64,000 bases of DNA from Diphasiastrum complanatum. Its lineage: Eukaryota; Streptophyta; Lycopodiopsida; Lycopodiales; Lycopodiaceae. Below, one piece after another: positions 12,409-55,334 of this stretch. The translations under genes were made by a program, and so were the position numbers. The stretch is taken from positions 6,516,548 through 6,580,547 of the forward strand of contig CM055094.1 in the NCBI GenBank assembly GCA_029204225.1. Direction: 5' to 3'. The notes beneath the pieces are model-generated. The model saw only the letters and a list, made by a program, of their open reading frames with translations. It did no database searches and was not told where the DNA came from. The first letter of the stretch is position 1; every line of letters starts with the position of its first letter.

Positions 12409-12420
12409 TGTTATCAGAGC
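12409..12420 (+). promoter_or_regulatory. Primer-binding site of copia B
   Basis: tgttatcagagc follows the LTR end without a gap and differs at one base from the initiator tRNA-Met complement. Confidence 0.8.
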
Positions 12421-12614
12421 TGTTTTACTACTTCCTTATTTGGTTCCAATATGATATCAAAGCAAAAGCTCTAATATTTCATATCTTTTGCGATATCAAA
12501 TTGATATCATACTCTTCAGTTCTTCTCAACCTTTCAGTAGCAGAGAATTGATTTCTTATTGTTGGTATTACCACATCTTAGCATCATCGATACAATCGAC
12601 AGACTAAGTTTCAA

Positions 12615-15060: not shown

Positions 15061-15660
15061 GTGTAGAAAGCTAGCTTGTTGAGAATCCGTGTAAACAAAA
15101 AATTGAACACTAAGCTTTTTGGCGCTATGAGTAACTCTAGTAAACTAGTAAACCATGATTTGACAAGGTATTCTCATTAAAACTGGTTCGATTTACTCAT
15201 TTTAACTTTGCATAGCCTTCTGGCATATCCATTTTAAATTTGGTTGGGTCTCTTTGAACAATGATGAGTTGGAAGGGCGAGCCTCAACATCCAATAGCAT
15301 TTCCATTAGCTGCCCAACGAAACATTTATTTATTTAATTTTTTTTGTTTATTTTAATTTGAGACACGCTACGTAACGTAGAAGCTTGATATCAGTAGTTC
15401 TACTAGTCCACATGGCAACACAAATGAGAAAAAAAATAAAAATGCATTTTTTAGAAAGGCCCTCTTTAGGCCCATATTTCTTCTAATGAGTGTCGTATGA
15501 GGATGCATTGTATAGGTGGTAGTATCTGTGTGTCGATTTCAACTTCTACTTCAATACCGGACACTCGTTTGAAGTTTGGTTATGGGTATATATGAGACAC
15601 CAAACACTGTCTCATCAAGGATACTGATGTTGATATGACTCTGAATGTTGTGTTGCAATA
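15061..15660. other. Non-coding interval
   Basis: No coding frame or repeat unit is recognised. The DNA is A/T-rich with scattered stops in all frames. Confidence 0.5.
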
Positions 15661-16183
15661 TTCTAAATAGCCTTTGGTGTTTTTATCAAACTGGACTATG
15701 AGCTATTCCATCTACAGCTTATGAAGTTTCGTGATCTGTTCCATCAACAAGTTATTGGATAGCCTTGTTGAAGCTGAGTTGATGTAATAAGAGTTGAGAC
15801 ATGGATAGATGTAGTTTATGAAATGGAATTACCATAAATTCCCTTGTCTTCTTCCCTCATGGCATCTTCCATAGCTTTGTGCAATGTTGTGTACCACTCC
15901 CATCTTTTCAGCTCACGTCAGATGCTTCGGGGTTAGTCCCACTAGAAACTAGATTATGACCACATGATGAAGAGTCAGTTTTGCATTATACTCAGATCGT
16001 AGGTATTTGATCCTTTCAATATAGTCTTTCAACCTTTCTCTTTGTCCCATTGATTTTGTCGAGCAAGAGAAACAAGCAATTGCTTTCTTCTTGTGTTGTC
16101 TGATTGAATAACTAGGCTAAAGTTGCATCTGACAAGGACATTGAAAATATCTTTAGCTTCTATGATGGATGGTTTCACCGTGA
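15661..16183 (-). pseudogene. Gag-like remnant (gypsy type), minus strand
   Basis: Reading the minus strand from 16183 downward gives DIFNVLVRCNFSLVIQSDN, then after a frame slip RERLKDYIERIKYLRSEYNA and LTLHHVVI-stop-FLVGLTPKHL. The pattern of a basic helical block followed by a VIQFLVGL-type block is the retrotransposon gag domain of Ty3/gypsy elements. The stop sits where Gln is usual (CAG to TAG). Further down, EDAMREEDKGIYGN is also open. No knuckle or protease is seen. Confidence 0.5.
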
Positions 16184-17007
16184 TGGAAAAATTTGAATTG
16201 AAAAGTTGTGCAAAGATATGATCAGGCTCTGTAACGAAACGAAAGAAAACAAAACGAAACGAAGCGAAGCAAAACTTGAACGAGCTTTGATATTGATATT
16301 GCTGAAGCGAAGTAATCGCGAAGTGAAGCGAAATGAAACACGAAGCGAAAAACAGTCGCGAACGAAGTCAATTCGGATGGAGTTCGGATATGATTGCTAG
16401 TCACTGCCTGCTATATCATTCCTACAATCCTCCAGAATGTAGATAGACACTACTGATCTATGTTATAGAATAATATAGCATTCAACAAGATTGAACCAAT
16501 GTGCAGAATTGATTAAACAAGTAAATGAGATACCCGAATAATAGCAGACAACGATTCATTCAAGATCAGACAAAATTCCAAATAATATGTGCATAATAGC
16601 TACAATATCATCTATTGATCCTCTTGATTTCGAGCACTATGTGACAGACCCACACAGTGCATTGACGTGAGAGAAGTGGCGTTCTCCCACGGATAATGTC
16701 TCACTTACTAGCGGACTTCTTGGATCTATTGATCCTCTTACAAAATTGTCTCGCTCACAAGCAGACTTGTATTATGTATTTTTTGTCCTTCTGTTTTTGT
16801 TGTATGCATCAAGCAAAATGTATATATTTTGCAAACTTTTTCGTGTCGCTTTGAGTAACATCCCTGATCAGACAAATTAAACATCTATAACTAATCATAG
16901 ATTACAAAAGCGGTGGATTAGCCACGTCCTGAAACTCTTCTGCTGATGTCACCATATCAGATCAAGGATTTGTACTTCATGGTACTTGGTTGATCTTCTT
17001 GGTGTCA
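16184..17007 (-). repeat. Solo LTR of copia A, inverted orientation
   Basis: The reverse complement matches the LTR at 6859-7692 along its length, including the TTCG-rich block, the tgatatggtgacatcagc block and the caccaagaagatcaaccaag end. It starts TGACACC and ends ..TTTTTCCA on the minus strand, 824 bp. No gag or pol of the same family adjoins it, so it is a solo LTR. The flanks (cgtga and gaaag) do not form an obvious target duplication. Confidence 0.85.
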
Positions 17008-17065
17008 GAAAGTGGTATGCAGAAGATAGGTCTAGTTCGAAAAGAAATGAATGAAAAAAATTTGT
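17008..17065 (-). repeat. Fragment of copia B LTR 3' end
   Basis: The minus strand reads ..tttttttcattcatttctttt..ctagacctatcttctgcataccactttc, the same as the last 60 bases of the copia B LTR (12348-12404). It abuts the solo LTR of A exactly, so A probably inserted into, or recombined at, a B LTR. Confidence 0.75.
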
Positions 17066-17218
17066 GTGTCTAGAAAGATCATTTCCAATGGTAAACTGGT
17101 AAGTAGTTGTAAACATTTCTATTCTTCCTTAATAGGTTATATCAACAATCAGTCATATAATAGCTATTCTTAATAGATGTATTTCGAAATGCAACACAAT
17201 TTGTGTCAATTTCTTGCA

Positions 17219-17290
17219 GGTACGTAAAAGACATGAGCTTGAAATCAAATGCAGAGATATTGGAGAAACTATTCAAATATTGGAGGAACA
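17219..17290 (+). other. Possible terminal exon, plus strand
   Basis: After a T-rich stretch ending tttcttgcag the frame reads VRKRHELEIKCRDIGETIQI and stops after LEEH; an AT-rich tail with aataaaatt follows. The composition is gene-like but the segment is short, and I found no partner exon I trust. Confidence 0.25.
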
Positions 17291-17519
17291 TTGAAATTTA
17301 ATATCATAAAAATAAAATTACATCATCATTATGGAATAGAAAACAAGTAGAAATTGAAATATAGTGCTATCACATAGACACAACTTGATTGTAACAATCT
17401 ATATTCATATCAATGAAAATTCCAAAGATGGGTTGTGTGTACAAGTATTCTTGTATCTATATTTTGATAATAATTTGTACATGTTTATGTACATTTGAAT
17501 TGTAATAAAAGTAAAATTT

Positions 17520-18310
17520 CTATTCAGTATATTTTTCTATATTTTCTTCTATACCAAGAGAGGCATTAGATAAAATTGCTTGCTCTTGTGCTATTTCAGT
17601 ATTAGGAGGTTGATAGAGCACAATCTCATGTCTTAATAGTTGTGCTTCTTCTTCATTTGGGAAGGACTTGTATACCTCGTTGATCGTAAATTATAGTATT
17701 TGCTTCGAGAGCATCCTGAAAGGCTGTCAGAGCAGGGGCGGCTTTTTTTGTATCACCTTTTGGGCTATCAATTTTAGGAACAGAACTTTTGGAACAAGAT
17801 GGATAAGTATCTTTTTTAAAATGACACTAAAGAAATAAGATTAAAAATAGAAAACATCAAATGAACAAATGTGTCAATGCTAAATTAGAAAAAATATATA
17901 GTACCTTATTAAGACCAATGTCCACTTGAAGATTATACCACTCAAAAAATAACTTTGTATTTTACAAAACGGACCATGCACAACTGAACGAATCCCTCTA
18001 CTGTACAGACTGCATACATTGAACGGAAAGTATTAACATTATGACAAATATTCTCTTCAAGAAAAGATGCAAAACTAAAGTCCATAAAATTTTTTGATAA
18101 TGTCTAAAATCTCAACACATTTATTCTTCATTTCATCACAAAATTTTGGACCCAACCAAAAGCTTTTTTGGGTTTCTGGAAGAAAAAAATCAAAATAATT
18201 GCCAAGACGATCTGTCTTATTGACTAAATAGGCCTCATATTCATTATAATGATCAAAATATATAAAAATCTTCCTAGAATAATATGGAATTTTTACAAAA
18301 AGAGAATGTA
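17520..18310 (-). pseudogene. Unrecognised spliced-looking ORF, minus strand
   Basis: From 18310 downward the minus strand reads ACANSSLQALVHSLFVKIPY, IYFDHYNEYEAYLVNKTDRL and FWLGPKFCDEMKNKCVEIL, then after a frame slip SFASFLEENICHNVNTFRSM and FEWYNLQVDIGLNK. A GT..AG interval (gtactatat to tttctttag, roughly 17905-17830) could be an intron, after which CHFKKDTYPSC, AAPALTAFQDALEANTI and, in another frame, RHEIVLYQPPNTEIAQEQAI lead to a stop at 17520-17522. It is clearly coding-derived but I do not recognise it. The GA tract and copia C cut its upstream side. Confidence 0.5.
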
Positions 18311-18355
18311 CAAGGGCCTGGAGGGAGGAATTAGCGCAGGCTGTCTAAGCATATG

Positions 18356-18357
<2 letters not shown>

Positions 18358-18449
<92 letters not shown>
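18358..18449 (+). repeat. (GA)n microsatellite, about 92 bp
   Basis: Pure GA dinucleotides directly 5' of the truncated copia C and directly after the minus-strand ORF remnant, so it sits on a breakpoint between two unrelated segments. Confidence 0.98.
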
Positions 18450-18451
<2 letters not shown>

Positions 18452-18474
18452 AGTGCGTAGACTCCTCAAACACC

Positions 18475-19881
18475 TATCTTGAAAACATCATCGTGAGATT
18501 TTCTATGCTGCCTTACAACACAAAGAAGTATGTTCATCTTGGTGATGATAGCACTCACACTATCGAAGGTGAAGGTACTATAAGATTGAGGTTCCAGCAT
18601 GATCAATTCAAACTACTATCAAAAGTCTTGTATGCTCCTAAACTCTCTATAAATCTGTTATCAGTAAGTAGAATTATAGATTTAGGTCATAAGGTGGAGT
18701 TTGAGTCTAATCAATGCAGAATTATCGATAGGAGTAATAAGATCCTTGCACTCGGCAAGAGGCACGGATACTTATATAGATTGGCACATTGTTATTCTAA
18801 TTCTAGTCAAGTCTTGAAAACCTCTATTCTTGTCAATAAAGCATTACTATGGCATCATTGCTTAGGACACTTGAATTATGCATCTGTTTTGAACATGTCC
18901 AGACAATCCCTAGCAATTGATCTCAACTATCCTTCTGGCAAAGTCGATATCCATGTATGTCGTAGCTGCATTCTTGGAAAGCAGACTAGGATTCCTTTTA
19001 GATCGAGTCATAGGCATGCAACAAAAGGTCTGTTAGATGTTGTTCATTCATATATATGTGGACCTATGCAAACTCCTTCATTGCTAGATGCAAAGTACTT
19101 TATTACCTTTATTGACGAATTTTCTAGAAGAACAGTTGTTTACTTCATTAAGCAAAAATTAGAAGCTTTCATCAAGTTCAGACAATTCAAAGAGCATGCA
19201 GAAAATCAAACTAGCAAACGAATCAAAGCATTGAGGTCCGACAACGGGGGAGAATACATCTCCACCGAATTCAAGGAGAACTGCCTTAACAACAACATTG
19301 ACCAACAATACATTACCTCCTATTTGCCTCAGTCAAATGGTCTTGCTAAGAGAAAGAATAGAACCTTAGTAAAATTGGCAAAGTGCATGTTATCACATGC
19401 GTCACTTTCGAAGTCCTTCTAGGCTGAAGCTGTTTCAATAGAAAACTATATTCAGAACAAATGTCCTACTAAAGGTCTCTCAGACAAAACACCATTCGAA
19501 GTTTGGACAGGTACCAAACATTCTTTATCAAACTTATCAGTTTTTGGATGTACTGCTTATGCGTAGATTCCTCATGATCTCAGAAAGAAGCTCGACTTCC
19601 AGAGTATCAAATGTATTTTCATCAGCTACACTACTTCAGATCAAGCTTACAAGTTGTTTGATCCCATCGAGTCAAATATATTCACTAGCCAAGATGTCAT
19701 CTTCATCGAAAATCAGTTTGTTGACCTCAAGGGAAAAGGCAAAGCCCATGTAGCCGACTTGTCTGACTCATCTGACATATTGAACTTCGAGATTCCTCAA
19801 TCGACTATTCCCATTGAAGGTCCAAGCTCATCTACTTTCGATGAGCAACAGATCAACGTTGAACCAAAACCTGACTGCTAG
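18475..19881 (+). pseudogene. Copia C protease end and integrase, catalytically dead
   Basis: One frame runs through this segment with two stops. It begins with YNTKKYVHLGDDSTHTIEG (also in copia B), LLSVSRI and LLWHHCLGHLNYASVL, then CRSCILGK of the zinc region. The integrase triad is damaged: HSYICGPM has Tyr for the first Asp, RSDNGGEYIS keeps the second, and GLAKRKNRTL has Lys for Glu. The stops lie after SKSF (TAG where Trp is usual) and after AYA (TAG where Gln or His is usual). The segment then runs through VFGCTAYA and YTTSDQAYKLFDP into a linker rich in Ser and Asp and ends before RT. Gag and LTR are missing. Confidence 0.88.
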
Positions 19882-20539
19882 TTAAGCTATGTAATAGAAA
19901 GAAATTCAGAAAAAAAAAAAAACAGGAGAGGTTTGATGAGGAAATGATTGTGGGACAGCCAGCTTCGTGGGCTATTTATATATTCAAATGAGAAGATTAC
20001 ATGCCAAGAAACAGCTACTATGGATTGACATGCTGATAGACGAATTGCTAATGTCAACAAACACAAGAAACACAAATGTGTTTTCTTTGACTCCAACAAG
20101 ATCTGAGTTTTCATCATCATAAAGGTCTAGATGGACTCATGGAGGTTGCAAATACTTGGTTTTACACTCATCTTCATCCTTTGTGTTTCATGTTTAATAG
20201 AGATCACTCTATCTTATGGTTGCTTCATGGTGATAACATTTGTTTCCACTCTATATATTGAAATGGAGCTTGATAAAATCTTGTTATATCTAGTCAAAAG
20301 CTTTTGGATGAAGAATGATGTTTGATAAAGATAAGGACATGTATAAATCATTATATTATCTTTGGTTTTGGTATTCAAATCATGCAAAATTCTAGTGTGA
20401 GGCATTAGTGCATGGAGAAAGGAGTTTTGTGTCAAAACTTGGCAACTAGAGTTTTTGGCATGGTTCTTGGAGTTCTGCTTTCAGTAGGCGAGTGGAACCT
20501 CATTCTTCAAAATCTTGAGTTGCAACTATTATCTCTTTC
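19882..20539. other. Unassigned interval with minus-strand promoter-like DNA
   Basis: No gene is recognised. At 19974-19985 the minus strand contains atatataaatag, a good TATA box, inside DNA that looks like an LTR leader, but no partner copy is present. The rest is AT-rich with broken frames. Confidence 0.35.
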
Positions 20540-21064
20540 CAACTGAGTATTGGCTTCTAGATTCGTTTCCAGAATAGTTTGATAAGAATTTTTGAGCTTT
20601 AGAACCACCAATGCTCGGTTTGCATAGAATATTTTCCGATTTACCTAAAAGCTTATCATCTTTTTTTGTTTTAACTTTGGCCTTTATGTAAGCCCACTTT
20701 AGACAAAACATCTTCTAATCTGGAAATGGCTTGCTTCGAAGATGATTCTGGCTTGTTATTTTGTGCAAATAATATGTGAAGATATATTATTTTTTCTATT
20801 ATATGCACCTCTACATGCAATGTATAAATATGAACATTAGAAATAGGAATCGGTAGTATGGATTTCCAATTTGGATCTTCTCGATCTCTTGATATTTATG
20901 TACTCCTTGTCATGTCTTTTGTCGTGTTCATGCAATACAGACAAGGGTGCTTTGAATTAGCTCCATGATATACATTGAACATACACGTTAACGTCTTTAG
21001 GTCTCTTGCCAAATGCCACTCTATGTTGAAATTGCCAATGTTTGGAACACTAAGTGGAACTCCC
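20540..21064 (-). pseudogene. Transposon-like ORF fragment with GANSKHPCLYC motif
   Basis: Reading the minus strand from 21064: VPLSVPNIGNFNIEWHLARD, MFNVYHGANSKHPCLYCMNT, a TAA, then SRDREDPNWKSILPIPISNV and IYTLHVEVHIIEKIIYLHIL, and after a frame slip LLGKSENILCKPSIGGSKAQ. The layout (hydrophobic block, GAN-xx-xPCLYC, then a D/YTLH-type block before a helix) recalls uncharacterised repeat-encoded proteins of invertebrates, fungi and other eukaryotes; I name no specific superfamily. The upstream end is cut by the 5' LTR of copia D at 21065. The TAA fits a CAA codon changed by C to T. Confidence 0.5.
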
Positions 21065-22371
21065 TGTTGGAAATTAAGCCCACAGTTGCCTCCTTGGTGA
21101 ATGACTAATTTCTATTTCATGATTCTTCCTGCATGTTTATTGATCATTGAAACCAACTTTGGTTCTATGTCTGCTCATCTGATACCTGCAAAAATCACAA
21201 ACTTAGACAACCAATTTATTTGAAAAACGTCTACAACGGGCTTTCGGCTGATCTCCAGCAAAGGGTAACCAATCTTGTCATAATTTCAAAGTTCAAATGT
21301 TAAGTTTAATAACTTGAAGTCATTGAAGACTTGGCCATCTTCAAGGACTTCCACAAAACTTGCGTTTAGAACAAGTCTGCAAAAATACATTATTTTTTAA
21401 CAGTCTGCAGAAATACACTGTGTTTTCAATAGCTTCGACTTTTTTGCATTTTTTTTGAAATGTGAAAACTTGCATAGTTCAAAAGTTTAACTGTTTTTAA
21501 CACACCTTCGGCTCTTTGCAAAAAATGCGAAGAGAGAGAAAATTCCCGAAGGTCATTTATTTTCATGCGTTAAACTGTTTTAAAGACATCATCTTTTAAG
21601 GGCACCTTCGGCTTTTTGCAAAAAATACGAAGAGAGAGAAAATTTTCGAAGGTCGTCTAAAATAAACAAGGAACGTTCTAGCGACGCCCTCATCCCGTCA
21701 ACGATGCTGAATTACTGACCGTATATATTGTGTACAGTTGTCACAAAAGCCATATACTTCCAAGTACAGCGACTTTTCTAATCAGGTGACAAACATTCAA
21801 TGTAATTAATACATGGATGAAGTCTATAAAGAGATCATCCAAGCACTGATTAGAGGTTGCTCCGTCCATGAGACGCATTACGTCGTCATCTTTTGTTGTA
21901 ATTGCTATATTGTATTGTGCTTCAGTGTAATAAAGCAACAGCATGTTTTTATCTGTATACAACGTAGATGAATACTTGTTGTGATTGAATAAACTTTCAT
22001 TGTTGTTTGATCACGCTTGTTTACTCACTCTGATCAGAACACAGACGTCTATGACTCAATTTTTGATCAGACGATGGCTGTCTTTGAGCCTGAGGAACTC
22101 GCGATATCACTCTGCTCTTCGATTTATTTTAGAACTGTACTTCACATTGAACATGATTTCAGTAATACCATACACAAACCATCTCTAATCTCTTCGGTGG
22201 ACTGTACTCTTTTTTTAGAGTATGAATTATTTTTTAAGATCCTGTTGGGCAATTAGAACACTTAAAGTTGTGATTACATTTAGCACATCAGCCGATCAGA
22301 ACGGGAGAGTTGTTCCGCAATATTTTTGCTCTCTTTTCCGTTCGCGTTCTTCTATCTCCCTTGCCCCATCA
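21065..22371 (+). repeat. 5' LTR of copia element D
   Basis: It starts tgttggaaattaagccc and ends before the PBS with ccccatca. The 3' partner starts at 24632 with the same word, and the two agree at long range with point differences. Relative to the 3' copy the 5' copy lacks about 14 bases after cattga (near 21149). Inside are a TATA box at 21825-21830 and an internal duplication of a gcaccttcggctttttgc block. Confidence 0.92.
21825..21830 (+). promoter_or_regulatory. TATA box of copia D LTR
   Basis: tataaa in agtctataaagagatcatcc; the 3' LTR has tataaatag at the same place (25405-25413). It is the best promoter candidate in this LTR. Confidence 0.6.
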
Positions 22372-22374
22372 GAG

Positions 22375-22386
22375 TGGCATCAGAGC
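22375..22386 (+). promoter_or_regulatory. Primer-binding site of copia D
   Basis: tggcatcagagc, one base from the initiator tRNA-Met complement, three bases after the LTR end. Confidence 0.85.
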
Positions 22387-22438
22387 GTAGCTCAAATAAA
22401 CCAAAAGATTAAGTTTGTTCTATTTGTATATTGTTATC

Positions 22439-23280
22439 ATGTCTCATATAGGTACCTCTTTATCTTCATCACTCAGTGAAGCTAGAGTCATTGACAAGTT
22501 CAATGGTTCTAACTTCTACATTTGGAAGTTAAAACTTAGAATGATGTTGATAGATAGAGATCTTTGGGATGTAGTAGAAGGTGCAGACCTGAAACCAGAA
22601 GATGGTGATCAAGAAAAGACCTGGAGGATCAAATATTAGAAGGCCCTAGCATGTATCACACTCAATCTAGCCGACTCCCAAATATCTCTCGTTACCACCT
22701 GCAAAACCTCTAAGGAAGAACTAGACTTGTTATCAAGTCTTTAATAGACTCACGATGTAACCACGAGATTACATCTTAGAAGGAAGTTCTTTACTCTTAG
22801 CATGTTTGATTCTACTGCCATCACTTCTCACATCAACAGCTTCAAATCTCTATTAGATCAGTTATCAGCTGTAGGATGTTCTATTTAAGATGATGATGTC
22901 GTCATGACCTTGCTTTCTTCTCTTCCAAAGTCCTATGAGCACTTTGTGGAGATGATCTCCACGCAACCCGACCTCACTCTTCAAAAGGTGATCGGTCATC
23001 TTCTTCAAGAAGAAATGTGGAGAAGTAGCCTGTCCATCAAAGACAAATCCATGGCTCTATACACCAAGAAGAAAGACTATTCCAAGGGCAAGAATCAAGT
23101 GCAGCAGCAACAGTAGAAGCCTCACACTCAAGGTGAGCATGGTGGATCGCGCAAGAAGCTTTTTTGCAGATATTGCAAAAGAGCTAATCACGACATCAAG
23201 GAGTGTCGCATCAAGATCTACAACGAGGCAAAGAAACAACAACAATAGCAGCAGCCAGACTCCTCCAACACATCGAAATT
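22439..23280 (+). pseudogene. Copia D gag with in-frame stops
   Basis: The first ATG after the PBS opens a frame reading MSHIGTSLSSSLSEARVIDK, then FNGSNFYIWKLKLRMML, LRRKFFTLSMFD, MTLLSSLPKSYEHFVEM and the intact zinc knuckle CRYCKRANHDIKEC. The same frame runs on into protease and integrase. Stops interrupt it at 22637, 22742, 22745, 22886, 23114 and 23246; the last two are TAG inside Gln runs, hence CAG to TAG. Without the stops it is a full-length copia gag of the same group as copia B. Confidence 0.9.
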
Positions 23281-24015
23281 CAAGGAGTCAAATACACACT
23301 TGATAATGGCTTACAGCAGCAGCGAAGACTATGATAGCTGGTACCCGGATAGCAGCACTACCCAACACATGACCTCTCGCAAGGAATGGTTTATGGAGTA
23401 CACAGTTTATAGCAGAGACCAATTTATCTACCTCGAAGATTCTAGCACCATACGCGTGGAAGCCAAAGGAGTAGTGAAGATCAGCTTCAACAACGATCTG
23501 TTCATTTGTGTTCCTAATGTCCTTCATGTTTTTCAGTTGTGAAAGAACCTGTTATCAGTCTCTAAGATAACTGATGAGGGCTACACTGTTACTTTCTCAT
23601 CTGAGCAGTGTACAATACTTGAGGAAGATACTACTCTGGCTACATGCACTAGAGTCAAAAATCTTTACATATTCTCTAATTCAGTTGCATTAGCTAGTAT
23701 TTCTAATGAAAATGTAAACGACAGTTCTGTTCTATGGCATAGTCAATTTGGACACGTGAATACAATATCACTTTCTTATATGCATTGTAATAATTTAGTT
23801 GATGGTTTGAATTTCCCGTCTTCATTAGATAGGAAATCTTTTTTTTGTGAATCATGCATCTATGGGAAAGACTCTAGAAGCAAGTCTCCAAAATCACATT
23901 CCATCAAAACAAACCATGTATTAGATCTTGTACATAGCGATCTATGTGGTCCAATGCCAACTCCGTCATTAGGAGATGCAATCTATTTTATCACTTTCAT
24001 AGATGATTACTCCAG
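23281..24015 (+). pseudogene. Copia D protease and integrase N-half
   Basis: The protease block is WYPDSSTTQHMTSRKEWF (DSS in place of DSG). Then come KNLLSVSKI, VLWHSQFGHVN and CESCIYGK of the integrase zinc region, HSDLCGPM with the first catalytic Asp, and FITFIDDYSRW. The frame is broken by a TGA at 23540. The integrase ends abruptly at DDYSRW, where the frame jumps to a post-RT motif, so two of the three catalytic residues are missing. Confidence 0.88.
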
Positions 24016-24618
24016 ATGGTCCATGTCTAATCCTAGGATCTCTCATTGGAAAGCATTAAAGAGAGTAATGAGATATATTCAGGGAAGTTTAGATCACATC
24101 TTATGTTACGATGGAAATGTTATCGACCCACTCGTCCTGTGAGGCTACTCCGACTCAGATTGGGGAGGAATAGTCTCTACCAGAAAATCCACCTCCGAAA
24201 TCTGTTTCTATCTAGGAGAGGACCGATTTCGTGGAGCTCAAGGAAGCATAAATCAGTTGCGCTTTCTTCTATAGAGGCAGAGTACATTGCAGCATACCAA
24301 GCTTCAAAAGAAGTTGTATGGACCAGGTTATTACTTCACGACCTACATCACACTTAGTTTAATGCTACCACCATTCTGTGTGACAACTTGAGCTGTATTT
24401 CACTGTCATTGAATCCCAGATTTTATGGCAAATCCAAGCACATAGAAATCCAATATCATTTCACTCGGGAGAAAGTTTTCTCAGGGCAAGTGATCCTTCA
24501 ATACTGCTCTACAACAGAAATGGTCGCAGACATCTTCACCAAAGCGCTTTCCAGGATCAAGCACCAGAAATTCTTCAACAAGCTAAACCTGACGAAGATA
24601 CCAAGGCACCAACCATGA
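24016..24618 (+). pseudogene. Copia D RNase H region after an in-frame deletion
   Basis: Directly after DDYSRW the frame reads SMSNPRISHWKALKRVMRYI, which normally lies after the RT domain, so the rest of integrase and all of RT are missing without loss of frame. A TGA (24140) and a frame slip follow; then SVALSSIEAEYIAAYQASKE, CDNLSCISLSLNP, GKSKHIEIQYHFTREKV and MVADIFTKAL form the RNase H and tail. The final stop lies three bases before the polypurine tract region. The element can only move with help. Confidence 0.9.
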
Positions 24619-29949: not shown

Positions 29950-30689
<740 letters not shown>

Positions 30690-30690
<1 letters not shown>

Positions 30691-31195
30691 GATATCATTA
30701 TGACATATATCTATTTAGTTTCAAGTAAAGGTTTAGCGTCAACAAAACGAATATTGCCATCTCTATATATTAAGCGTCTCCCTATTTTCTTTGCATTCTA
30801 TAGGGTCTTTTCCCTTTCCACAACTTGGACAAATGTAAGATCTTCATCTAGGAAAGCTTATGTCTCTGACGGAGTACCTCACGCCTAGACTCCAACGAAG
30901 CACAGGACAAGAGTGCTAGCATCTTTCTTGGTACGCCAAGCTGAGTTAAACCATTGTAGTGGTGCTGGAGATTAGTTTCCAAGAATTCCTTGGCTTCCTT
31001 AAGGGCATCCTGGGAATCTGGGACACCTCTAACACAAACATTAAGAGCCTTTTGCTCTCACAGCCTGCTCTCAGTAAGTGTAGCAGAGATGGAGGAAACT
31101 GGAGCGTCTGCTTTACCTGGACCTTTGAGAACCTCTGCCCAAGATTGGACGACCGTATGATGCTTCTCCACTTTTAGAGAGACAAGCTTGTTTCA
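30690..31195 (-). pseudogene. LINE ORF1-like protein, minus strand, joined to LINE tail
   Basis: From about 31190 downward the minus strand reads KLVSLKVEKHHTVVQSWAEV, then KALNVCVRGVPDSQDALKEA, KEFLETNLQHHYNGLTQLGV and SLESRREVLRQRHKL, and after a frame slip FLDEDLTFVQVVEREKTL and NIRFVDAKPLLETK. The order ALN-VRGV, a helix, then a block ending REVLRxRxKL and DLT is that of LINE ORF1 proteins with an RRM-like core, which bind LINE RNA. A TGA before EQKALNV fits CGA to TGA. ORF2 (endonuclease and RT) is absent: the 3' tail follows within about 200 bases. Confidence 0.7.
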
Positions 31196-42909: not shown

Positions 42910-43015
42910 AAAATTCACACACCAAAACTTCTAAAGTCGTGGAGTAAGTATGGGTGCTCCATCATCTCCGATGGATGGAGTGATGCAAGAAAGCGACACG
43001 TCATCAATACATCGG
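42910..43015 (+). pseudogene. hAT transposase fragment (DUF659-like)
   Basis: LKSWSKYGCSIISDGWSDAR followed by KRHVINTSA matches the conserved hAT block (W..GC.I.SDGW.D.....IN) near the start of the catalytic region. Only about 35 residues are recognisable; beyond them the DNA changes to unrelated sequence, so this is a relic of a DNA transposon. Confidence 0.65.
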
Positions 43016-43139
43016 CTAGAGACCAGATCCATGAGCAGGAGAGGCTCAGTCAGGTGGAGTTGCTTGTTTATACAGGGAGTCTCTGCATCTTATCATTGAG
43101 TTTGTCAACCATGACAAGCACAGATGATATAGTTGACTT

Positions 43140-43700
43140 CATATTGATAGACACGGCATCGACTTGGACAGAGACCTACTTTCCTCCAAAGACCTCCTTT
43201 GCTGATATCACCGGTTCACCTTTTCTGGATCTTTCTATGGACATTGTCAGATAGGACACATTTTTCTCACTGGTGACTTTAATGACAAGGCAGCCTCACG
43301 ATAGTCGGACTTCCATGATGTTACCAAACATCAGCACTTTCGTGCCCTTGAAGGAGACAACTTGGGAGTTACCAGGACCTCTGATGACACTCTGGGACCT
43401 ATCACTACATATGGGGAGTATTTGCTGCAACTAGGTGAAGCCCATGAGTTAGCAATCTATAATGGCTTTAGCTTGCTGGCCTAATTCTGGTAGGTATACA
43501 TGTCATCCTCATAGTGGATGTCACAATGTTGTTGATTACGTCATGGGATCACCATCCTCCATCCCACACATATCTGATTTTCACATGACTCACACTACTC
43601 TCTCCAATCACTCCTTTCCATCCTTCAATCTTGGCACTATCTTGATGCCACAGTTGTCTTCCCGTCCCACACTTCATCGTGCACCCACATATTCCTTTGA
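43140..43700 (+). pseudogene. LINE endonuclease domain (AP-type), frameshifted
   Basis: Three frames carry successive endonuclease blocks: YFPPKTSFADITGSPFLDLS, then LTGDFNDKAASR and TTYGEYLLQLGEAHELAIYN, then NSGRYTCHPHSGCHNVVDYV and MGSPSSIPHISDFHMTHTTL with SNHSFPSF. The GDFN and YV-GS motifs and the SNH block (for SDH) are landmarks of apurinic-type LINE endonucleases, which nick target DNA. RT does not follow: the gypsy LTR starts at about 43800. It could be the missing 5' part of the family at 52851-55263. Confidence 0.75.
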
Positions 43701-43799
43701 CCCTTTGTGTAGATAGCTCTACCAAGAATCTCTAACCCCATTACTATATCATTTCCCACACAATAGTCCATTAGCTTCCTCTAGGCCTCCATATTGTCA

Positions 43800-47756: not shown

Positions 47757-47761
47757 CAAGG

Positions 47762-48296
47762 TGTCATGTGCTTCTAGTACATCAAAGCTTATCAACGCAT
47801 AGCTTTGTAGGCCCAAAACGAGCTATTAGCCTTAAGAATAAGGGGGTTCCCTCTTTAGGCCCTCCAAAGTAATTAATAAGGATAATAAGCCAACAAGGGC
47901 CCAAAATACATCTAGTAAGACTATCGTTAAGATAGGTATGTATAGTTAAGTTAGGAGATTTGTCTATAAGTAAGCAAGAGACATCGCTTTTGGGATCTTT
48001 TGGCTCATTTGCAATTGAGAGAACTAGGAGCTCCATCTCCTCTTCCTCCATTGTGAATGTGAGCCTTGGGATCTTGATCTTGCTAGGTCTCATTTGCCCC
48101 ATCACATGAATTCATGTACTCCTCACTCTCCATAATGGAATCCATCTCCTTTTAAGCTTCACTTTGATATGAGCTTTGTGGTAGCTTGCGGTTATTCTTC
48201 ATCTCTGGTTCTCTTCAACATAGGTGTGGTGGTTGCCTCCTTGTTCTCGCTTGCTTGGCTTGGATTGGCTTGGATTGAGAGGTATGGCACATGACA
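47762..48296 (+). repeat. 5' LTR of G2
   Basis: It aligns with the 3' LTR over gcaagagacatc, cttttgggatcttttggctc, ccatctcctcttcctcc and the remainder, with few differences in the right half and indels in the first 150 bases. Confidence 0.92.
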
Positions 48297-48619
48297 TTTG
48301 TGGCCAAAAATCATTTGATTCAACATGAATCTCATTTCATTTGAAGAGTTTATTGCTTTTGTAGCTTTCTTTTTGCTAATTTCTAACTTTTAAATTTTCA
48401 GGTCTTTTCAGACTCATTTTTAGTATATAACTTCGTTTTTAATTTCTAATTTGATTCCATAGACTTTTAGAGCTTTGTTTTAGCTTAAAAGCTATTGCGA
48501 TTTTCCCAAAAGCTGTCAAAATAGGTGACTACAAATTAGTTTTTATTTTGAAAGGCCCATAAGCCTTTTTACATCATTTTTCAAATAGAAAAAAGATAAA
48601 ATTTAAAAAAATATATATT

Positions 48620-48810
48620 TGCAATATCACTTTCGAGCGTGGGTGGACCATTCAAAAAGTTCATCTATCCTATTTGCGCTTGAAACCGATATCTCGGAAA
48701 AAAAATAAAAACTTTTTTTTCCTCCAATATCGATTTCGAGCGCGTTTGCTTCTGTGCACTTATTCTAATAGTCTATTTGCGCTTGACTTCGATATCAGGT
48801 GTACAGAACT
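48620..48810 (+). repeat. Duplicated hairpin unit in the G2 leader
   Basis: Two tandem units of about 100 bp each hold a left arm (aatatcactttcgagcg; aatatcgatttcgagcgcg) and a right arm (tttgcgcttgaaaccgatat; tttgcgcttgacttcgatat). Within each unit the arms are approximate inverted complements (gatatcg-tttc-agcgc), so the RNA could fold into two similar stem structures between the PBS region and gag. Confidence 0.65.
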
Positions 48811-49081
48811 CATAGATTCTCCATATCCACTTTTTGTTTCTATTTGACCTTGGATTTTGATGTTGAAAAAAGCAAAGTTGTTCAATTTGTGGTAACCTAC
48901 ATATTGATCACAGCTATTACATAGTTTCAATTTGTTACAGTTTCCATTCACAACCACCTCATTTTTCAAGGACTTACAATTTTAAGTGGGTGGAGAAAAG
49001 CATCTCAACGGCCTGTCAAATTCCTTTGTTAATGAAATTTAGTTGGTGAACTCATAGTCCACAGGATTTTATCAGTCATTA

Positions 49082-49612
49082 ATGATGGAATTTCGATATA
49101 GTAAATATACTCAACTTTCATCTGTTGACGGAATAGAATCGGAAATCGTGCGTTATAGTCTTGTTTTTTATGGACAACCAACTTCAATCAGTATTGAAGA
49201 CTAGTTGACTAGGTTGGAAGGTTATTTTCGTCATCACCATTATTCTGATGAAGATAAAATCTACTTCCCTTCATTATGTTTTCAAAGACAAGTTCGAGCA
49301 TGGTGGGATACTAAAGCACATCCAATCACAAAGCTTTGGAGTAAATTCAAAATTGCTTGCATTGATAGTTTTGAATCTCTCAAGCAAACTGGATTTGTAC
49401 AACAATTCAATCAACAATTCTTGGCATTGGTTCCAAAGACAAAACTTGAGAACAGAAAATGTTTGGACTACTATATGAATTCTCTTCAAACTCCTATGAG
49501 AAATGTGCTTCAACCAACTCTTTCCAAATCCATTTATGCAGCCAGTTTAATGGAGTTACACAATATGATGGATCGTGCACTTGCTCTGGTTATCTACAAA
49601 CCATATCAATGA
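49082..49612 (+). pseudogene. G2 gag domain 1 (one in-frame TAG)
   Basis: From ATG at 49082 the frame reads MMEFRYSKYTQLSSVDGIES, then ISIED-TAG-LTRLEGYFRHHH (TAG for the Trp usual in EDWL), FPSLCFQRQVRAWW, WSKFKIACIDSFESLKQTGF, VQQFNQQFLAL and MDRALALVIYKPYQ. The W..(F)...W and QQFN blocks are those of gypsy-type gag. Its TGA overlaps the ATG of domain 2 as ATGA. The one stop makes this a pseudogene unless read through. Confidence 0.82.
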
Positions 49613-50240
49613 ATGGTGGAAAGTCACTAACGGAATCCTTGTTTTACAACCAACGACTATCTAAATACGTTAGTCCTACCTTTGATGGAAGCATTCACTC
49701 CATTAATGTGGATAATTGGCTAGAAGATTTGGAATATAACTTCTATTATATTGGAGGTATTGGTGACAGTGATTTGGTTTTCTTTGCTTCATCGACTTTC
49801 CAAGGACGTGTTCAGTTATGGTGGAACGTCATTCAAGACTTTCTTTCTATGAATTGGTTTAATTTCAAAGCAGTTTGTAGAAAGGTTTTCAATCGATCCG
49901 ACTTCATCCAATGGTGTTCTTTAAACCAAATAACTACAATTGCTGAGTACAATCAGCAGATGGTTCCAGTGTTTGACTATAGAGAAGTATATCTTGTCCA
50001 ATGTTATATATATGGGTTACAACCACAATTTTGGAGTGTTGTGGAAAATTATCTGCAAACTACTTCTCTACAACCTGGGTTTCGATTAAGGGAAACTATG
50101 GAATATGCTTTAAAGTACGAGCAATGAGAACAAAGGCTTAAACTGGAAGTTGAAAGCAAAGAAGAACAATCCAGGTGGTTTGAGGAAATGAAGTTGCGAA
50201 TTCAGAAATTGATCGTTTACACTAAAGCATCAGTGGATCG
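49609..50240 (+). pseudogene. G2 gag domain 2
   Basis: The frame starts at the overlapping ATG and includes VSPTFDGSIHSINVDNWLED, LEYNFYYIGGIGDSDLVFFA, FQGRVQLWWNVIQDFLSMNW and WCSLNQITTIAEYNQQMVPV. It is a second complete gag core with the same block order as domain 1 (NVDNWL../F..../RVQLWW/YNQQ), but clearly diverged, so the duplication is old or the domains have separate origins. A TGA at 50125 (CGA to TGA) separates it from a charged helical tail, EQRLKLEVESKEEQSRWFEE. Confidence 0.85.
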
Positions 50241-51740
50241 ACAACCGAAAAGGTGCATGAAAGTGAAGGCACTTCTGATGATGAAGACGAGTCTGATGAG
50301 CAAAGCGACAACGATGAAGCCATGAGCAAAGTGACGATGAATCTCAAGTCCCAGACTCAGATACAACTGCAGACAACAAAAATCCAATTCAAGGTTTGGG
50401 TCAAGTTGCAACAATAGATGGTGAAAATCAGGATTCAAGCGAAAGTCAAGATTCAGATCAAAATACGAAGATACTTGAGCATCCTTTTGAGTTTCACTTC
50501 AACCATCAAAGTCCAAAACATGACCTACATCAATGTCCTAATCTGATCAAAGGACGAGCGACTATGGGCCGTCAAATTGAGAATAGTGCTATGCCCAAAG
50601 AAAGTCAATCAAGGCATTCACCAGACTTTCATAACGAGGACTATATGACACCGATATTCCGAGGCTTGGAATTGAGTGGCTATTCTAAGGATCCAGTCTG
50701 CGAACCATTTCAATTTGATTTGGGGCCTTGCAAAAGTATTTCTATTTTGACAATGATCTAATGAAGTATGAGGAATTCAACATGGGTACTACTAGCAAGA
50801 AAGAGAATTCATTATTCCATAAATATCCAACTTGTATCAATACTTTGGATTATTGTTCAAGGCCTCATGGATCCATTTTACAAGAGCTTAAAGTGGCTTC
50901 TCCTGGAAAATCTTATTTCTATGGATTCTCTGAAACTCAACTTCCAACATCTAATTCACGTGTATATCTGGAAAATATGGACGTGTAATGATTGGGAATG
51001 TTCTCTCAGTCAATCAACACTCTATTGGAAACTGATTTTTCAAAATGCCAACAATTTATATCAACTTCTTTGGAGAAGTTTGCAATGCTCGGTGGGTTTT
51101 AGCAAGATCAATATTCGAGAGTAACGTCAACAATGATTTTCTACAGTGGGAGAATCCGAATGGCAGAATTGTTTCTTTCAAGGTTCGACCTTGGAATACA
51201 TATGCGTTCTCCTGTATCAATGCTTCAAGCATATACATGGCCAATTATGGTTTACAAATCCTTAAAAGTAAATTTCATTTATAATCCAAACTGGCAGAAG
51301 CAGAATTCAACTCTATTGGGCATATCCAAGCAACACTTTTCACTGGAGTTGACTTGTCTTGGCCAACTTTGAATGAAAATTTGTCCAGATTTGAAGAAAT
51401 ATATTCTAGTCAACAGTATGAGAAATGCTTCATTGTACAACCGAGTGTCATTCTTAATGCCGACTACTTCATCTAGAGCATTTACATTTGAACAACAATT
51501 CATGGAAAAATTGTAATTTTCTTCATCAAGTTGGTCAAATAGCATGGATTGCCAACTACAACAGAAGATCCGGATGCAAGACAAAAAAATCCAAAAGAAT
51601 TGGATAAGCATCCGATTTGGTATGATGTTGAAGAAGCAAAAACAATTTTGGACGACACACCCTCAATCGTAACTACTTAACCGAGACGATTTTGTTGATT
51701 AGACAAGCGTCTTCATTTTTGAGGACAAAAATGTTTAAGT
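50241..51740 (+). pseudogene. G2 downstream coding-derived region, unrecognised
   Basis: Short frames in sequence include DSSESQDSDQNTKILEHPFE, PDFHNEDYMTPIFRGLELSG, SLFHKYPTCINTLDYCSRPH and FGEVCNARWVLARSIFESNV with NAYAFSC-like aromatic-rich stretches. No zinc knuckle, aspartic protease or RT motif is visible. The region could encode an extra structural protein that has decayed. Frames switch several times. Confidence 0.4.
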
Positions 51741-51748
51741 AGGGGGAG

Positions 51749-52202
51749 TGTCATGTACTTCTAGTACATCAGAGCTTATCGGAGCATTAGAATATCCATT
51801 GTCAGAATACATCTAGTAAGACTTAACAAGGGCTAACTATCTTTAAGATAGTTATGTTCAGTCAAGTTAGGAAACTTGTCTATAAGTAGGCAAGAGACAT
51901 CACTTTTGGGATCTTTTGGCTCATTTGCAATTGAGAGAACTAGGAGTTCCATCTCCTCTTCCTCCTTTGTGAATGTGAGCCTTGGGATCTTGATCTTGCT
52001 AGGTCTCATGTGCCCCATCACATGAATTCATGTACTCCTCACTCTCCATTATGGAATCCATCTCCTTTTGAGCTTCACTTTGATATGAGCTTTGTGGTAG
52101 CTTGTGGTTATTCTTCATCTTTGGTTCTCTTCAACATAGGTGTGGTGGTTGCCTCCTTGTTCTAGCTTGCTTGGCTTGGATTGAGAGGTATGGCACATAA
52201 CA
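51749..52202 (+). repeat. 3' LTR of G2
   Basis: The partner of 47762-48296, about 80 bases shorter because of indels near its start and a lost ggattggctt repeat near its end. Confidence 0.92.
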
Positions 52203-52560
52203 CAAGGTTGAGGCCTAGGTTTAGGGGTATGGTCCAATACCCATGTTAAAGGCCCCCTAACACCTCACAAGGTTCCATACCTCCGTCTAAGGTATAGAAA
52301 CCTCCATGCCCTTATCCAAGGACTCAAATACCTTTATCCAAAGGCACCTACCCTTATCCAAGGGTGTCATGTCATTTAGCCCCCCAGAGACTAAACGGGC
52401 ACATAGGGGACATTGACGTACTGCCAGTTACATAGGTATGTAACATAGATGCTCAAAGAGACAGCCAGCCCATAGGCCACAGCCCATAGCTCCACTGCAA
52501 CATAGACGACACCGACAACCCACTCGGAGACAGGTCCGCAGCCCGTTCAGCGATAGTTTC
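52203..52560. other. Unassigned interval with ccttatccaagg words
   Basis: ccttatccaagg-type words occur three times at 52312-52365. No gene is seen. Confidence 0.45.
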
Positions 52561-52779
52561 ACAGCATACTTACTATACACCATTTTTTTTAGGCGGAGGG
52601 ACATTTATTATATCAGGAGGATGGACTATGACTGTCCCAGCCATCTCACTATATGCAGTTTCTATTTTTGCAGGTTTGTTTCCTTTAGATGGTTGAGCTT
52701 TTAAACTCCTACTGTGCATACTTGAGATGTACCTTTTATTAGTTCTATGTACCTTAGGGTATTTCAAGCACATTAATAA

Positions 52780-52782
<3 letters not shown>
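52561..52782 (+). mobile_element. LINE 3' tail, first copy
   Basis: The last 70 bases match the LINE end at 55200-55263: cttga-atgtac-ttta, an ag-tct-tat word, a small hairpin, and then cacattaataaag before the CT repeats. The hairpin is gTACC-TTAG-GGTAt (52749-52762). Upstream similarity fades, so the LINE body of this copy is decayed or truncated. Confidence 0.8.

Positions 52783-52850
<68 letters not shown>
52783..52850 (+). repeat. (CT)n tract between two LINE copies
   Basis: A pure CT tract immediately after the first LINE tail and immediately before the truncated body of the second LINE. Confidence 0.97.
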
Positions 52851-52857
<7 letters not shown>

Positions 52858-54413
52858 CCCTTTGAGTTCACCTTCTTCACCGCTGACATGGTACTTGCGG
52901 CCATCAAGAAAATGAAATCCCATAAAGCAAGAGACATTGAAGACCTCGAGTCTGAACTCCTAATCCATGTTCCGGACCTCCTTGCTCCCACACTAGCCAC
53001 TCTCCTCAATTCCGCCGTTGTCTCTGGCTTCCCCTCATCCTGGTGCACCAACATCATCCATCCTATCTATAAAAATGGTAATCCCATGATTCCTGGTAAC
53101 TACCGCACTATCATGATCGGACATGTCCTCACTAAACTCTATGGTACCATACTCTAGTCTGCAGTAAGTTCAGAGGCGGAATCCAGGAGATTACATGCAT
53201 TGGGACAGGCAGGTTTCCGAGCTCATTACTCTACCACTGACCATATTTTCACACTTCGAGCTTTGATTGAGGAAGCTAAGTACAGGAGAGAAAGGGTTAA
53301 ATGTTGTTTTGTGGACTTCAGGAAAGCCTTTGATTCTATACCACGCTCCCTGCTCGTTCAGAGACTTCGGGACCTTGGTTTCTCCACCGATATTGTTATG
53401 GCAGTGATGGCTCTCTATGAGAAGGTCTTGGGATGTTTCTGACATGGGGGTGGTATCTCTGACCACATTTGGAGCACCATTGGAGTGAAACAGGGATGCT
53501 CTCTTTCACCGGTTCTTTTTGAATTGTACATTGATGAGTTAGAGCAAGCCATCTCACAGTGTGGAGGAGCTGGATGTAGACTTGGCACCATCTTGATTGC
53601 TATCCTCTTGTATGCTGATGATGTGGTACTAGTATCCCCGACCAGAGAGGGATTACAGAGGCAGCTGGATTGTTTATAGGGATTCTGTACCAGATGGGGA
53701 TTGGGGGTGAACACTACAAAGACCAAGGTTATGGTCTTTAACACTTCCCGAGCCTTCATGCAGCGCCAGCAGCTCATGCTTGATGGACGAGCTTTAGAGG
53801 TTGTTTCCTCGTACACCTATCTGGGGATACTCTTTTCTGGTCCTACTTTCAGCATGTGACAGGCAGCCACCACTCGACTTGGGAAGGGGCATTCCTCCCT
53901 TGTTCAGCTTGAGCAGTTCTGCGTCAAGAAGTCCATCGGAGATGCTCGTAGTAAGTGCAGACTCTTTGACACTATTGTCACCCCCACAGCCTTGTATGCA
54001 GCAGAGACATGGTGTACCGGTCTTCCGTCATCACACTGGGCCAGCATTTCACGATTACAGACCACCATGCCAGCTCATATGATTCAGGCGAAGCCCTCTG
54101 TTCCACACGAGATCCTTCTCACAGAGTTTGCCGCTCCACCCATTCAGATAGCTTCAGCTTTTCAGTTCAGGATCTGCCAGATACAGACACGAGATATACG
54201 CAGGCATCACTTGCCTCCTCACACTCCCTTCATGATCAGGTTACCGACTGTCGTGGTTCTCACAGGCATCCCATTTCCTACTAGCTCCCCTCAGGTACTC
54301 ATCAGTATATCAGACGCTTTTTATATTGGACATATCTCGACCGTACTTGGAGGCGACAGCTTGGGGTCAAACCCGCCTATTAGTGGACTCATTTCATTGA
54401 GCTTGACATAGCA
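52851..54413 (+). pseudogene. LINE reverse transcriptase, 5'-truncated
   Basis: One frame holds the RT blocks in order: VLAAIKKMKSHKARDIEDLE, VSGFPSSWCTNIIHPIYKNG, GNYRTIMIGHVLTKLYGTIL, then VKCCFVDFRKAFDSIPRSLL (motif A), VKQGCSLSPVLFELYIDELE (motif B), LLYADDVVLVS (catalytic YADD) and TYLGILFSG. The thumb side continues with ALYAAETWCTGLPSSHW. Stops at 53155, 53440, 53677 and 53858 are TAG or TGA; the last fits CGA to TGA. The endonuclease is missing. The motifs look closer to animal-type (CR1/Jockey/RTE-like) elements than to angiosperm L1, which is an impression only. Confidence 0.9.
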
Positions 54414-55061
54414 GGGTTCCTAGTTTTGCCACACTATTTGGACTCAGGTTTATCACACGGCCTCAGATTTACACTGGGACAGCTCCGCGTATCGTCACAT
54501 CAGTTGGCCATTGAGACTGGGAGATTCCAGGGTACCCCGAGAGAAGAGCGGATTTGTCAGTTATGTTCCTTGGATGAGGTGGAGTCAGAGGAGCACTTTA
54601 TCTTTAGGTGCCCGGTGTATTACGAGATCAGAGGGAGATACCATTGTCTGTTCCATGACACGCCTGTCACCCTACGATCCCTCCTAGCCTATGAAAACTC
54701 CCGTTGCGCCGCACTCATGATACGAGAGATGTTTATTCTGAGACAGGACCTGTGTCAGATAGCCCAGCGGAGTCATGTTTCTCAGCCTCAGATCGCTTCT
54801 TTCTTCTCCAGGAGGAGGAGCCGAGACCTAGCATTTGATGTTGATGAGGTTGATGACGACTTACATGCCCACCGGGATCAGAGACAGTGTCCCACTCATA
54901 CTCATATTGTTGCACGAGCTACACGACCGATCATGAGGAGATCTCATCCTCTTAGACGACGTCAGCGACCACCAGTGGTTCCTCATGCTGTAGCCCGTAT
55001 TACATCCTTTTATAGCATTAGCGTGACAGGATTGGATGATAGTGTCATACCATATTCATGA
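54414..55061 (+). pseudogene. LINE ORF2 C-terminal zinc-finger end
   Basis: After a frameshift the element continues for 211 codons. A CCHC motif RICQLCSLDEVESEEHFIFR followed by CPVYYEIRGR is the conserved LINE C-terminal finger. A long Arg/His-rich tail (RRQRPPVVPHAVARITSFYS) ends at a TGA. The open length shows this part is less decayed than the RT. Confidence 0.82.
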
Positions 55062-55260
55062 CATTTAGCAATATATATGCTCCCACATGCTTCATATATC
55101 ATCGCATCTTTTTCAGTTTCCATTTCAGTTCATAGCAGTTAGATTTGTTATTTTTGTTATAGTTTTGGAGACATTTCATACGCTCCTACAGTTACCACAT
55201 ACTTGACATGTACATTTACCAGTCTTATATGCCTTTTGGCATGGAAAAGACATTAATAAA

Positions 55261-55263
<3 letters not shown>
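55062..55263 (+). mobile_element. LINE 3' UTR with terminal hairpin
   Basis: About 200 non-coding bases end cttatatgccttttggcatg, gaaaagacattaataaagct. ATGCC-TTTT-GGCAT (55229-55242) forms a five-pair stem with a four-base loop, 20 bases before the CT tail. The same arrangement ends the copies at 30484-30540 (minus) and 52740-52782. Confidence 0.85.

Positions 55264-55334
<71 letters not shown>
55264..55334 (+). repeat. (CT)n tail of the LINE, about 71 bp
   Basis: A CT repeat starts two bases after the aataaag end of the LINE. Confidence 0.97.

Follow-up and report, generated by a model that had tools for sequence, protein, structure and literature searches.

A LINE family with a conserved 3′ hairpin and a probable preference for CT microsatellites in Diphasiastrum complanatum

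Introduction

The window analyzed here (the whole stretch of 64,000 nucleotides of Diphasiastrum complanatum DNA) contains three LINE 3′ ends, each with a hairpin, an AATAAAG motif, and an array of CT repeats. A first-pass annotation took the array for a tail in place of poly(A) and the hairpin for a selected RNA structure. The locus raises the question of whether the CT repeat is made by the LINE or was present before the LINE arrived, and what the hairpin is for.

Results

LINE Ends in the Window and in the Genome

Reading the window sequence confirmed the three LINE ends at the positions claimed by the annotation, and the inner stems and four-base loops of all three matched those it had given (Table 1). 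The order of hairpin, spacer, AATAAAG, and CT also stood. However, the spacer, put at about 20 bases, is shorter, with 12, 14, and 12 bases between inner stem and AATAAAG, and an outer stem (GTCTT/AAGAC) had been overlooked. By folding, the hairpin consists of two stacked stems, the outer one being separated by a small internal loop from the inner one (ATGCC/GGCAT) with its four-base loop. In addition, there are ten CT/GA arrays in the window, and three of them come directly after such LINE ends.

Table 1. Positions of the LINE ends, their hairpins and CT arrays, and a related remnant in the window
Feature	Position	Strand	Evidence or remark
LINE copy 2, 5′-truncated, reverse transcriptase (RT) frames broken, adjoins the CT array of copy 1	52851..55261	+	RVT_1 pieces, frames
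Copy 2 bipartite hairpin	55222..55251	+	Sequence, folding, pair counts in 75 ends
Copy 2 outer stem, GTCTT/AAGAC	55222-55226 with 55247-55251	+	
Copy 2 inner stem, ATGCC-TTTT-GGCAT	55229-55242 (55229-55233 with 55238-55242)	+	
AATAAAG of copy 2	55255..55261	+	
CTTTCT, then (CT)n, after copy 2	55262..55334	+	Read as short proximal tail plus target microsatellite
LINE copy 1, 3′ end, C-type	52446..52782 (5′ limit approximate)	+	329 nt upstream of AATAAAG common to other copies
Copy 1 hairpin	52742..52771	+	Sequence, folding, cluster consensus
Copy 1 outer stem, GTTCT/AGCAC, one mismatch (C-type consensus GTCCT/AGGAC)		+	
Copy 1 inner stem, GTACC-TTAG-GGTAT	52749-52762 (52749-52753 with 52758-52762)	+	
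(CT)n array between copies 1 and 2	52783..52850	+	Occupied by the 4847-bp LINE X in contig C2618
Third LINE end, D-type element: ORF1-like pieces and 3′ end, without ORF2	30484..31173	-	
Third-end hairpin	30495..30525	-	Sequence, folding
Third-end outer stem	30525-30521 with 30499-30495	-	
Third-end inner stem, ATGCC-TTAT-GGCAT	30518-30505 (30518-30514 with 30509-30505)	-	
(CT)n array at third end	30357..30483	-	
Remnant of a more distant LINE APE endonuclease, same group	43004..43779	+	tblastn

Such ends are abundant in the genome. The pattern TTAATAAAG(CT)8 had 1318 matches in the 1.74-Gb assembly, a count that takes in some unrelated ends, since 6 of 60 places read were without the hairpin (L063, L075, L103, L104, L111, and L115). 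Meanwhile, TATRYRCCNNNNGGYRYNNNNAAGAC had 6901 matches genome-wide, and the reversed-pattern control gave 0 for both patterns. An unrelated repeat ending in ...TTCTTAATAAAG(CT)n, possibly an LTR end, imitates the LINE end without a hairpin (L063, L075, L103, L104, and L115).

Several other features were seen in the window. A CACATACTTGACATGTAC-like block lies at 55196-55213, 8 nt upstream of the copy 2 hairpin, and recurs in A-type and partly in C-type ends. Two direct repeats within 47761-52135, 88-95% identical and about 3.9 kb apart (47920/51836), adjoin copy 1 and are probably the LTRs of one element. In addition, several Ty1/copia remnants (gag, integrase, and SH3-like domains) were found at 8044-24139. 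A match to the hAT-like domain DUF659 fell under its cut-off. No Rfam family reached its gathering score in the window, L044, or L058.

An APE-Type LINE and Its ORF1-Only Partner

The family is best seen in LINE X, a near-full-length copy of 4847 bp in contig C2618 (L044:179-5025). It begins after (CT)n with ORF1 and ORF2, followed by 254 nt to the end, which include the two-part hairpin (inner part GTGCC-CCTG-GGCAC), AATAAT, and a short tail, and then (CT)n. ORF1 spans 336 codons between stops, and a coiled coil was recognized in it by eye. ORF2 has 215 + 959 codons with one stop between, and matches Exo_endo_phos (APE; E = 1.3e-12) and RVT_1 (E = 1.8e-32); toward its C-terminus, a Cys/His motif was again recognized by eye. 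The family is an APE-type non-LTR retrotransposon, with APE and RT in one frame interrupted by one stop.

Copy 2 of the window is related to LINE X, with 54% and 48% protein identity to its ORF2 in two stretches. Of its two RVT_1 pieces, the one at 53158-53439 falls short of the curated cut-off (E = 1.3e-4), and the other, at 53443-53676, has E = 7.4e-11. The best stretch of the APE remnant (43177-43779) has 44% identity with E = 3e-35 by tblastn. Furthermore, the copies have the 3′ end in common and stop at different points on the 5′ side, a 5′ truncation as expected for LINEs.

Against PDB sequences, the RT of LINE X matched R2 (4.8e-20) and human L1 ORF2p (3e-19), scores that do not single out one clade. 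In the ends printed in this study, AATAAAG or AATAAT is followed by pyrimidine repeats and not by the poly(A) of the plant L1 clade, and none of them carries the (TTG)n or (TTGATG)n of the plant RTE clade. The position of ORF1 before ORF2 in LINE X was also counted against the plant RTE clade.

Meanwhile, the D-type element keeps ORF1 and the 3′ end. The ORF1 homology of the window copy was recognized by eye; the tblastn support comes from its relative L027, which has 40% identity to the ORF1 of LINE X (E = 1e-21). The upstream 3′ UTR of this ORF1-only element differs from that of the LINE, and the hairpin is the same. When nine D-type and nine A-type ends were chosen and compared, little was common outside a terminal stretch of about 35 nt, which comprises the hairpin and the bases after it. 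This suggests that the terminal segment of about 35 nt may be what a shared machinery needs.

In five places (L002, L058, L070, L051, and L057), LINE 5′ ends begin within tens of bases after CT with an ATG-initiated MAP.. or MDP.. frame. The CT array might act as a promoter of downstream LINE 5′ ends.

Pairing and Conservation of the Hairpin

The folding energies were -12.8 kcal/mol (z = -3.5) for the copy 2 end and -12.9 kcal/mol (z = -4.1) for the third, minus-strand end, but only -6.2 kcal/mol (z = -1.0) for the C-type end of copy 1. To count pairs, 113 LINE ends were collected, of which 109 had both arms and 75 were distinct over 36 nt. Left out beforehand were 16 of 93 regex matches (14 non-LINE ends and 2 repeats of one end), 4 of 40 later loci (L103, L104, L111, and L115), and 4 of the 113 LINE ends, which were without a 5′ arm (L081, L100, L101, and L105).

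Across the 75 ends, standard pairs made up 92.2% of 744 pair cells, compared with 87.4% in shuffles (0 of 500 as high) and 34-57% in slid versions of the stems. In addition, 55 cells were changed on both sides, compared with 18.3 in shuffles; there was no excess of pairs with both-side change (5 vs. 4.2) or of further pair types (14 vs. 13.3) in these ends. The both-side changes were found at outer pair 4 (U-A 54, C-G 17) and at inner pairs 1 (A-U 47, G-U 14, G-C 8), 2 (U-A 57, C-G 3), 3 (G-C 44, A-U 26), and 4 (C-G 61, U-A 1). A C.A mismatch occupies inner pair 2 in 10 of the 75 rows, mostly D-type, and one subfamily keeps it.

Because kinship among copies inflates covariation counts, we used a tree-aware null that preserves column and branch rates on a tree, with two trees built from the upstream sequence and from the hairpin. 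The paired fraction exceeded this null in the inner stem (P < 0.002 and P = 0.006 for the upstream and hairpin trees, respectively) and in the outer stem (P = 0.002 with both trees). For double-change cells, P was 0.06 and 0.002 in the inner stem and 0.21 and 0.15 in the outer stem, the latter being non-significant, and extra pair types were not above the null. Furthermore, in an R-scape-style test of all column pairs, the top-scoring pair was the true inner pair 3, with a non-significant E of 0.47. The covariation check proposed by the annotation thus supports pairing against the tree-aware null and gives no significant best pair, and covariation is supported only moderately.

Between subfamilies the hairpin is conserved and compensated. 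The majority sequences of the four clusters with at least two ends (66, 18, 4, and 3 ends) pair at 10 of 10 positions with compensatory differences at 4 pairs, the largest cluster pooling A-type and D-type ends so that its majority sequence masks the D-type C.A at inner pair 2. RNAalifold recovered both stems from these four sequences, and it found no structure in the 75 rows or in all 22 clusters.

Unpaired stem changes at neutral rates, which the annotation had named as a case against the hairpin, do occur. Genome-wide, single changes at inner pair 3 in the ATGCC setting were A.C in 48 and G.U in 44 copies, nearly equal, which strand symmetry would produce in dead copies; most copies decay neutrally. 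However, the double change ATACC/GGTAT was found in 23 copies, which may derive from few sources, compared with about 0.4 expected if the changes were independent (an expectation based on an estimated ATGCC/GGCAT total of about 5,700, from 30 of 36 printed strings scaled to 6901 matches). We read this excess as selection on active sources, from which decaying copies are exempt.

It is improbable that the hairpin reflects shared ancestry alone and has no RNA function. Such an origin would agree with the non-significant test of all column pairs, with extra pair types and outer-stem double changes at the level of the null, and with the C.A group at inner pair 2. However, the paired fraction exceeds the tree-aware null in both stems, the four majority sequences keep ten pairs with four compensated, and the ORF1-only partner has little more than the hairpin in common with the LINE. 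A conserved 3′ stem-loop with compensatory changes, common to non-autonomous partners, is the feature of stringent-type LINE 3′ ends. Since the hairpin is kept, compensated, and common to the ORF1-only element, the best reading is that it is a putative recognition site of the LINE RT.

CT Arrays Precede the Insertions

The 3′ flank of L055 belongs to a host repeat. Of 1204 candidates for this repeat 40 were scored, giving a minimum of 40 copies. Ten copies were read at the site, taken from the best-scoring matches and therefore non-random. Eight of the ten are empty with (CT)n at the insertion point, and in three of these (L119, L120, and L124) (AC)n follows, giving a (CT)n(AC)n form; L125 and L127 appear identical over 180 nt and may be one duplicated copy. 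The other two carry LINE ends of different subfamilies, L126 of the ATGCC type and L128 of the ACGCC type. With L046 and L055, which were found via the LINE and have differing truncation points, the host-repeat array has four LINE copies in a single direction.

The window provides another empty site. Contig C2618 is 99.5% identical to the window over 1048 bp of the left flank and 99.0% over 3002 bp of the right flank, and has LINE X between window positions 52850 and 52851, preceded by 95 nt of CT and closed by a short run of CT. In the window this site, the array separating copies 1 and 2, is empty; C2618 is either the other haplotype or a recent duplicate. The LINE has inserted into a pre-existing (CT)n microsatellite, as microsatellite-targeting LINEs do.

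What follows AATAAAG or AATAAT is not uniform. The proximal stretch consists of CTTT repeats in many A-type ends, CTT repeats in L128, TTC repeats in L030, AAT/TCTAAT repeats in L012, L044, and L051, and TTTTA-type repeats in L027. Despite these differences, the outer part of the tail region is CT, with most ends having been sampled on the condition of a CT run; a C-type query without CT returned 35 of 40 places of an earlier search. Other tail types after the same end, which the annotation had counted against its model, thus occur in part; they point to CT targeting and leave the hairpin unharmed.

Could the (CT)n still be the tail of the element itself, arising when the RT slips or already present in its RNA, as described for RTE elements that seed microsatellites, with no target preference? 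The printed ends do lead into CT, proximal repeats such as (CTTT)n resemble slippage products, and C-type copies mostly have no CT on the 5′ side. However, the array is already present in the empty host-repeat copies and at the window site, CT lies on both sides of many copies, and differing proximal tails lead into CT. This alternative is largely refuted by the empty sites and keeps a small probability, and the annotated (CT)n tail in place of poly(A) has to be given up. Because the empty sites hold bare (CT)n, and because the proximal tails vary while the outer part is CT, we attribute most of the (CT)n to the target microsatellite; what resembles a tail is confined to a short, pyrimidine-rich stretch next to the body. 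A mixed model, with a short own tail and a target CT, belongs to this preferred reading.

Junctions, Clusters, and Target Duplications

Automatic calling of 5′ ends was noisy, since CT runs align with each other and bodies have internal deletions, and 5′ junctions were hence listed by hand. In this non-random list, which includes one row (L051) that is the 5′ end of an A-type copy and not the inserted LINE fragment, 15 of 34 junctions had a CT run of at least 10 nt: 14 of 19 outside the C-type, compared with 1 of 15 in the C-type. Four more non-C-type junctions, as well as the minus-strand copy of the window (TCTCTCT, 7 nt), fall below the 10-nt threshold. The general lack of CT at C-type 5′ junctions, which speaks against the targeting reading, could possibly be due to loss of upstream target at insertion or to old deletions.

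LINEs also follow each other head to tail after CT arrays. Of 70 CT-followed ends, 18 have same-strand LINE sequence that starts no more than 30 nt past the CT. Within 1.2 kb of the 70 ends, the first LINE neighbor shared the strand in 31 cases and lay on the opposite one in 2 (P = 1.3e-7, assuming independence). Both opposite cases and several of the same-strand ones are neighbors in one cluster and hence non-independent, library rows can contain some host DNA, and at least one of the 70 ends is false (L044-6791). Three of five opposite rows are omitted from the 31:2 ratio, two because their library row (L008+446) is no LINE end and one because it belongs to the false end. The strand ratio was used instead of a LINE count at 0-150 bp downstream (25 of 72), because the controls of the latter were contaminated by the same downstream LINE (16 of 45 and 10 of 39); that count also included one false end (L040+5606). 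L105 shows truncation at its extreme, with a LINE copy of about 27 nt of 3′ end directly after the CT array of another LINE.

It is also improbable that these clusters arose by template jumping of the RT between RNAs during one insertion, with no repeated targeting. The direct abutment on the same strand and the truncated copies joined directly to CT would be expected from such jumping. However, CT-flanked single copies are found in non-LINE host DNA (L042, L046, and L055), and at the window locus a single entire LINE distinguishes the two forms, which means that this array, at least, was enlarged by a separate event.

One clear target duplication was found. In L051 (4138-4500), a short LINE fragment of about 140 nt before its AATAAT lies between identical 58-nt copies, each directly beyond a (CT)n array, as if the first cut had fallen within the CT array or at its edge, and the cut of the other strand at least 58 nt beyond it. 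When 3′ flanks were compared with the 4 kb upstream, matches of at least 9 nt appeared in 9 of 78 ends, with 20 nt in L051, extended to 58 nt on closer look; the other eight (9 or 10 nt, several inside LINE sequence) were taken as chance. Far-staggered duplications were absent from 18 non-CT 5′ junctions, where the last 12 nt of the 5′ flank were searched with at most 1 mismatch at a distance of 381-1200 nt past the CT. On the minus strand of L074 (about 54-130), (CT)n is flanked by repeated CGCAACTGGT, which looks like a CT-only insertion with a target duplication.

Finally, it is very unlikely that the empty sites are secondary, the LINEs having been lost by recombination between flanking CT arrays: such arrays, as on both sides of LINE X in C2618, would permit this and would likewise leave a clean array, but 8 of 10 host-repeat copies would each require a precise loss, and three of the empty copies share the (CT)n(AC)n form.

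Discussion

With a probability of roughly 0.8, we propose that this is an APE-type LINE family that targets CT/GA microsatellites, primes on nicked (GA)n, and is recognized through its 3′ hairpin, which the ORF1-only partner also has. The APE endonuclease would nick the GA strand within an array. The freed ...GAGA-3′ end could then pair with the pyrimidine-rich RNA tail after AAUAAAG and prime first-strand synthesis, while the RT would find its RNA through the hairpin, a stringent type of recognition. Incomplete copying would give 5′ truncation. If both cuts fall inside the array, the target duplication would itself be CT and invisible; a second cut beyond the array would leave a long duplication, as in L051. 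Furthermore, the CT left beside one insertion may receive the next LINE.

A wider picture is less probable, and we offer it tentatively: a self-renewing plant LINE system in which CT is the target, the pairing partner of the RNA tail, and, upstream of full-length copies, possibly the promoter, in which the CT arrays left by each insertion take up the next one and head-to-tail clusters result, and in which an ORF1-only element is a parasite with the same hairpin and the same target.

Similar elements exist in other lineages. HAL1 elements are ORF1-only relatives of mammalian L1. Like the D-type partner, they keep ORF1 and the LINE 3′ end and have lost ORF2; they end in poly(A), whereas the D-type ends in a hairpin and a CT array. 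Kibi, in (TC)n, and Koshi, in (TTC)n, are fish LINEs of the Tx1 clade. By description they resemble the present family as APE-type LINEs in CT-type microsatellites, and they differ in their fish hosts. Microsatellite-targeting LINEs in animals are said to have been described by Kojima and Fujiwara in 2004. That work is listed among the references of PMC4640811 and PMC3706591.

In plants, the L1 lineage ME1 (monocot 1a) has, according to passages of PMC3747384, a covarying 3′ stem-loop. As in the present family, this hairpin shows compensatory changes and is common to non-autonomous elements; however, it has a UCU loop followed by CGAG, and the stems and loops found here are different. The same passages state that almost all L1 elements of flowering plants end in poly(A), and that RTE elements end in (TTG)n or (TTGATG)n. 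Meanwhile, lepidopteran RTE elements are described in part of PMC2887409 as generating microsatellites, the repeat being attributed to slippage at the 3′ end. LINE 3′ ends are associated with simple repeats in both cases, but the repeat is a slippage product there and precedes the insertion here. No plant LINE with CT-repeat targeting was found in the literature searched, whose coverage leaves out most subscription journals. Microsatellite-targeting LINEs in animals and a plant 3′ stem-loop are thus known already, and the new aspect would be CT targeting by a plant LINE.

The present family would give plants a sequence-specific LINE whose ends number in the thousands (6901 pattern matches), with an empty site that can be read and a conserved candidate recognition hairpin. 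If the proposed reading is true, it would be a tractable model for target choice by an APE endonuclease and an RNA end. In addition, an endonuclease with the predicted preference for (GA)n and a defined RNA handle would serve as parts for targeted insertion. For the genome of this plant, the family is also a warning that some CT microsatellites are LINE landing sites, and that a LINE end followed by CT should not be taken for a tail.
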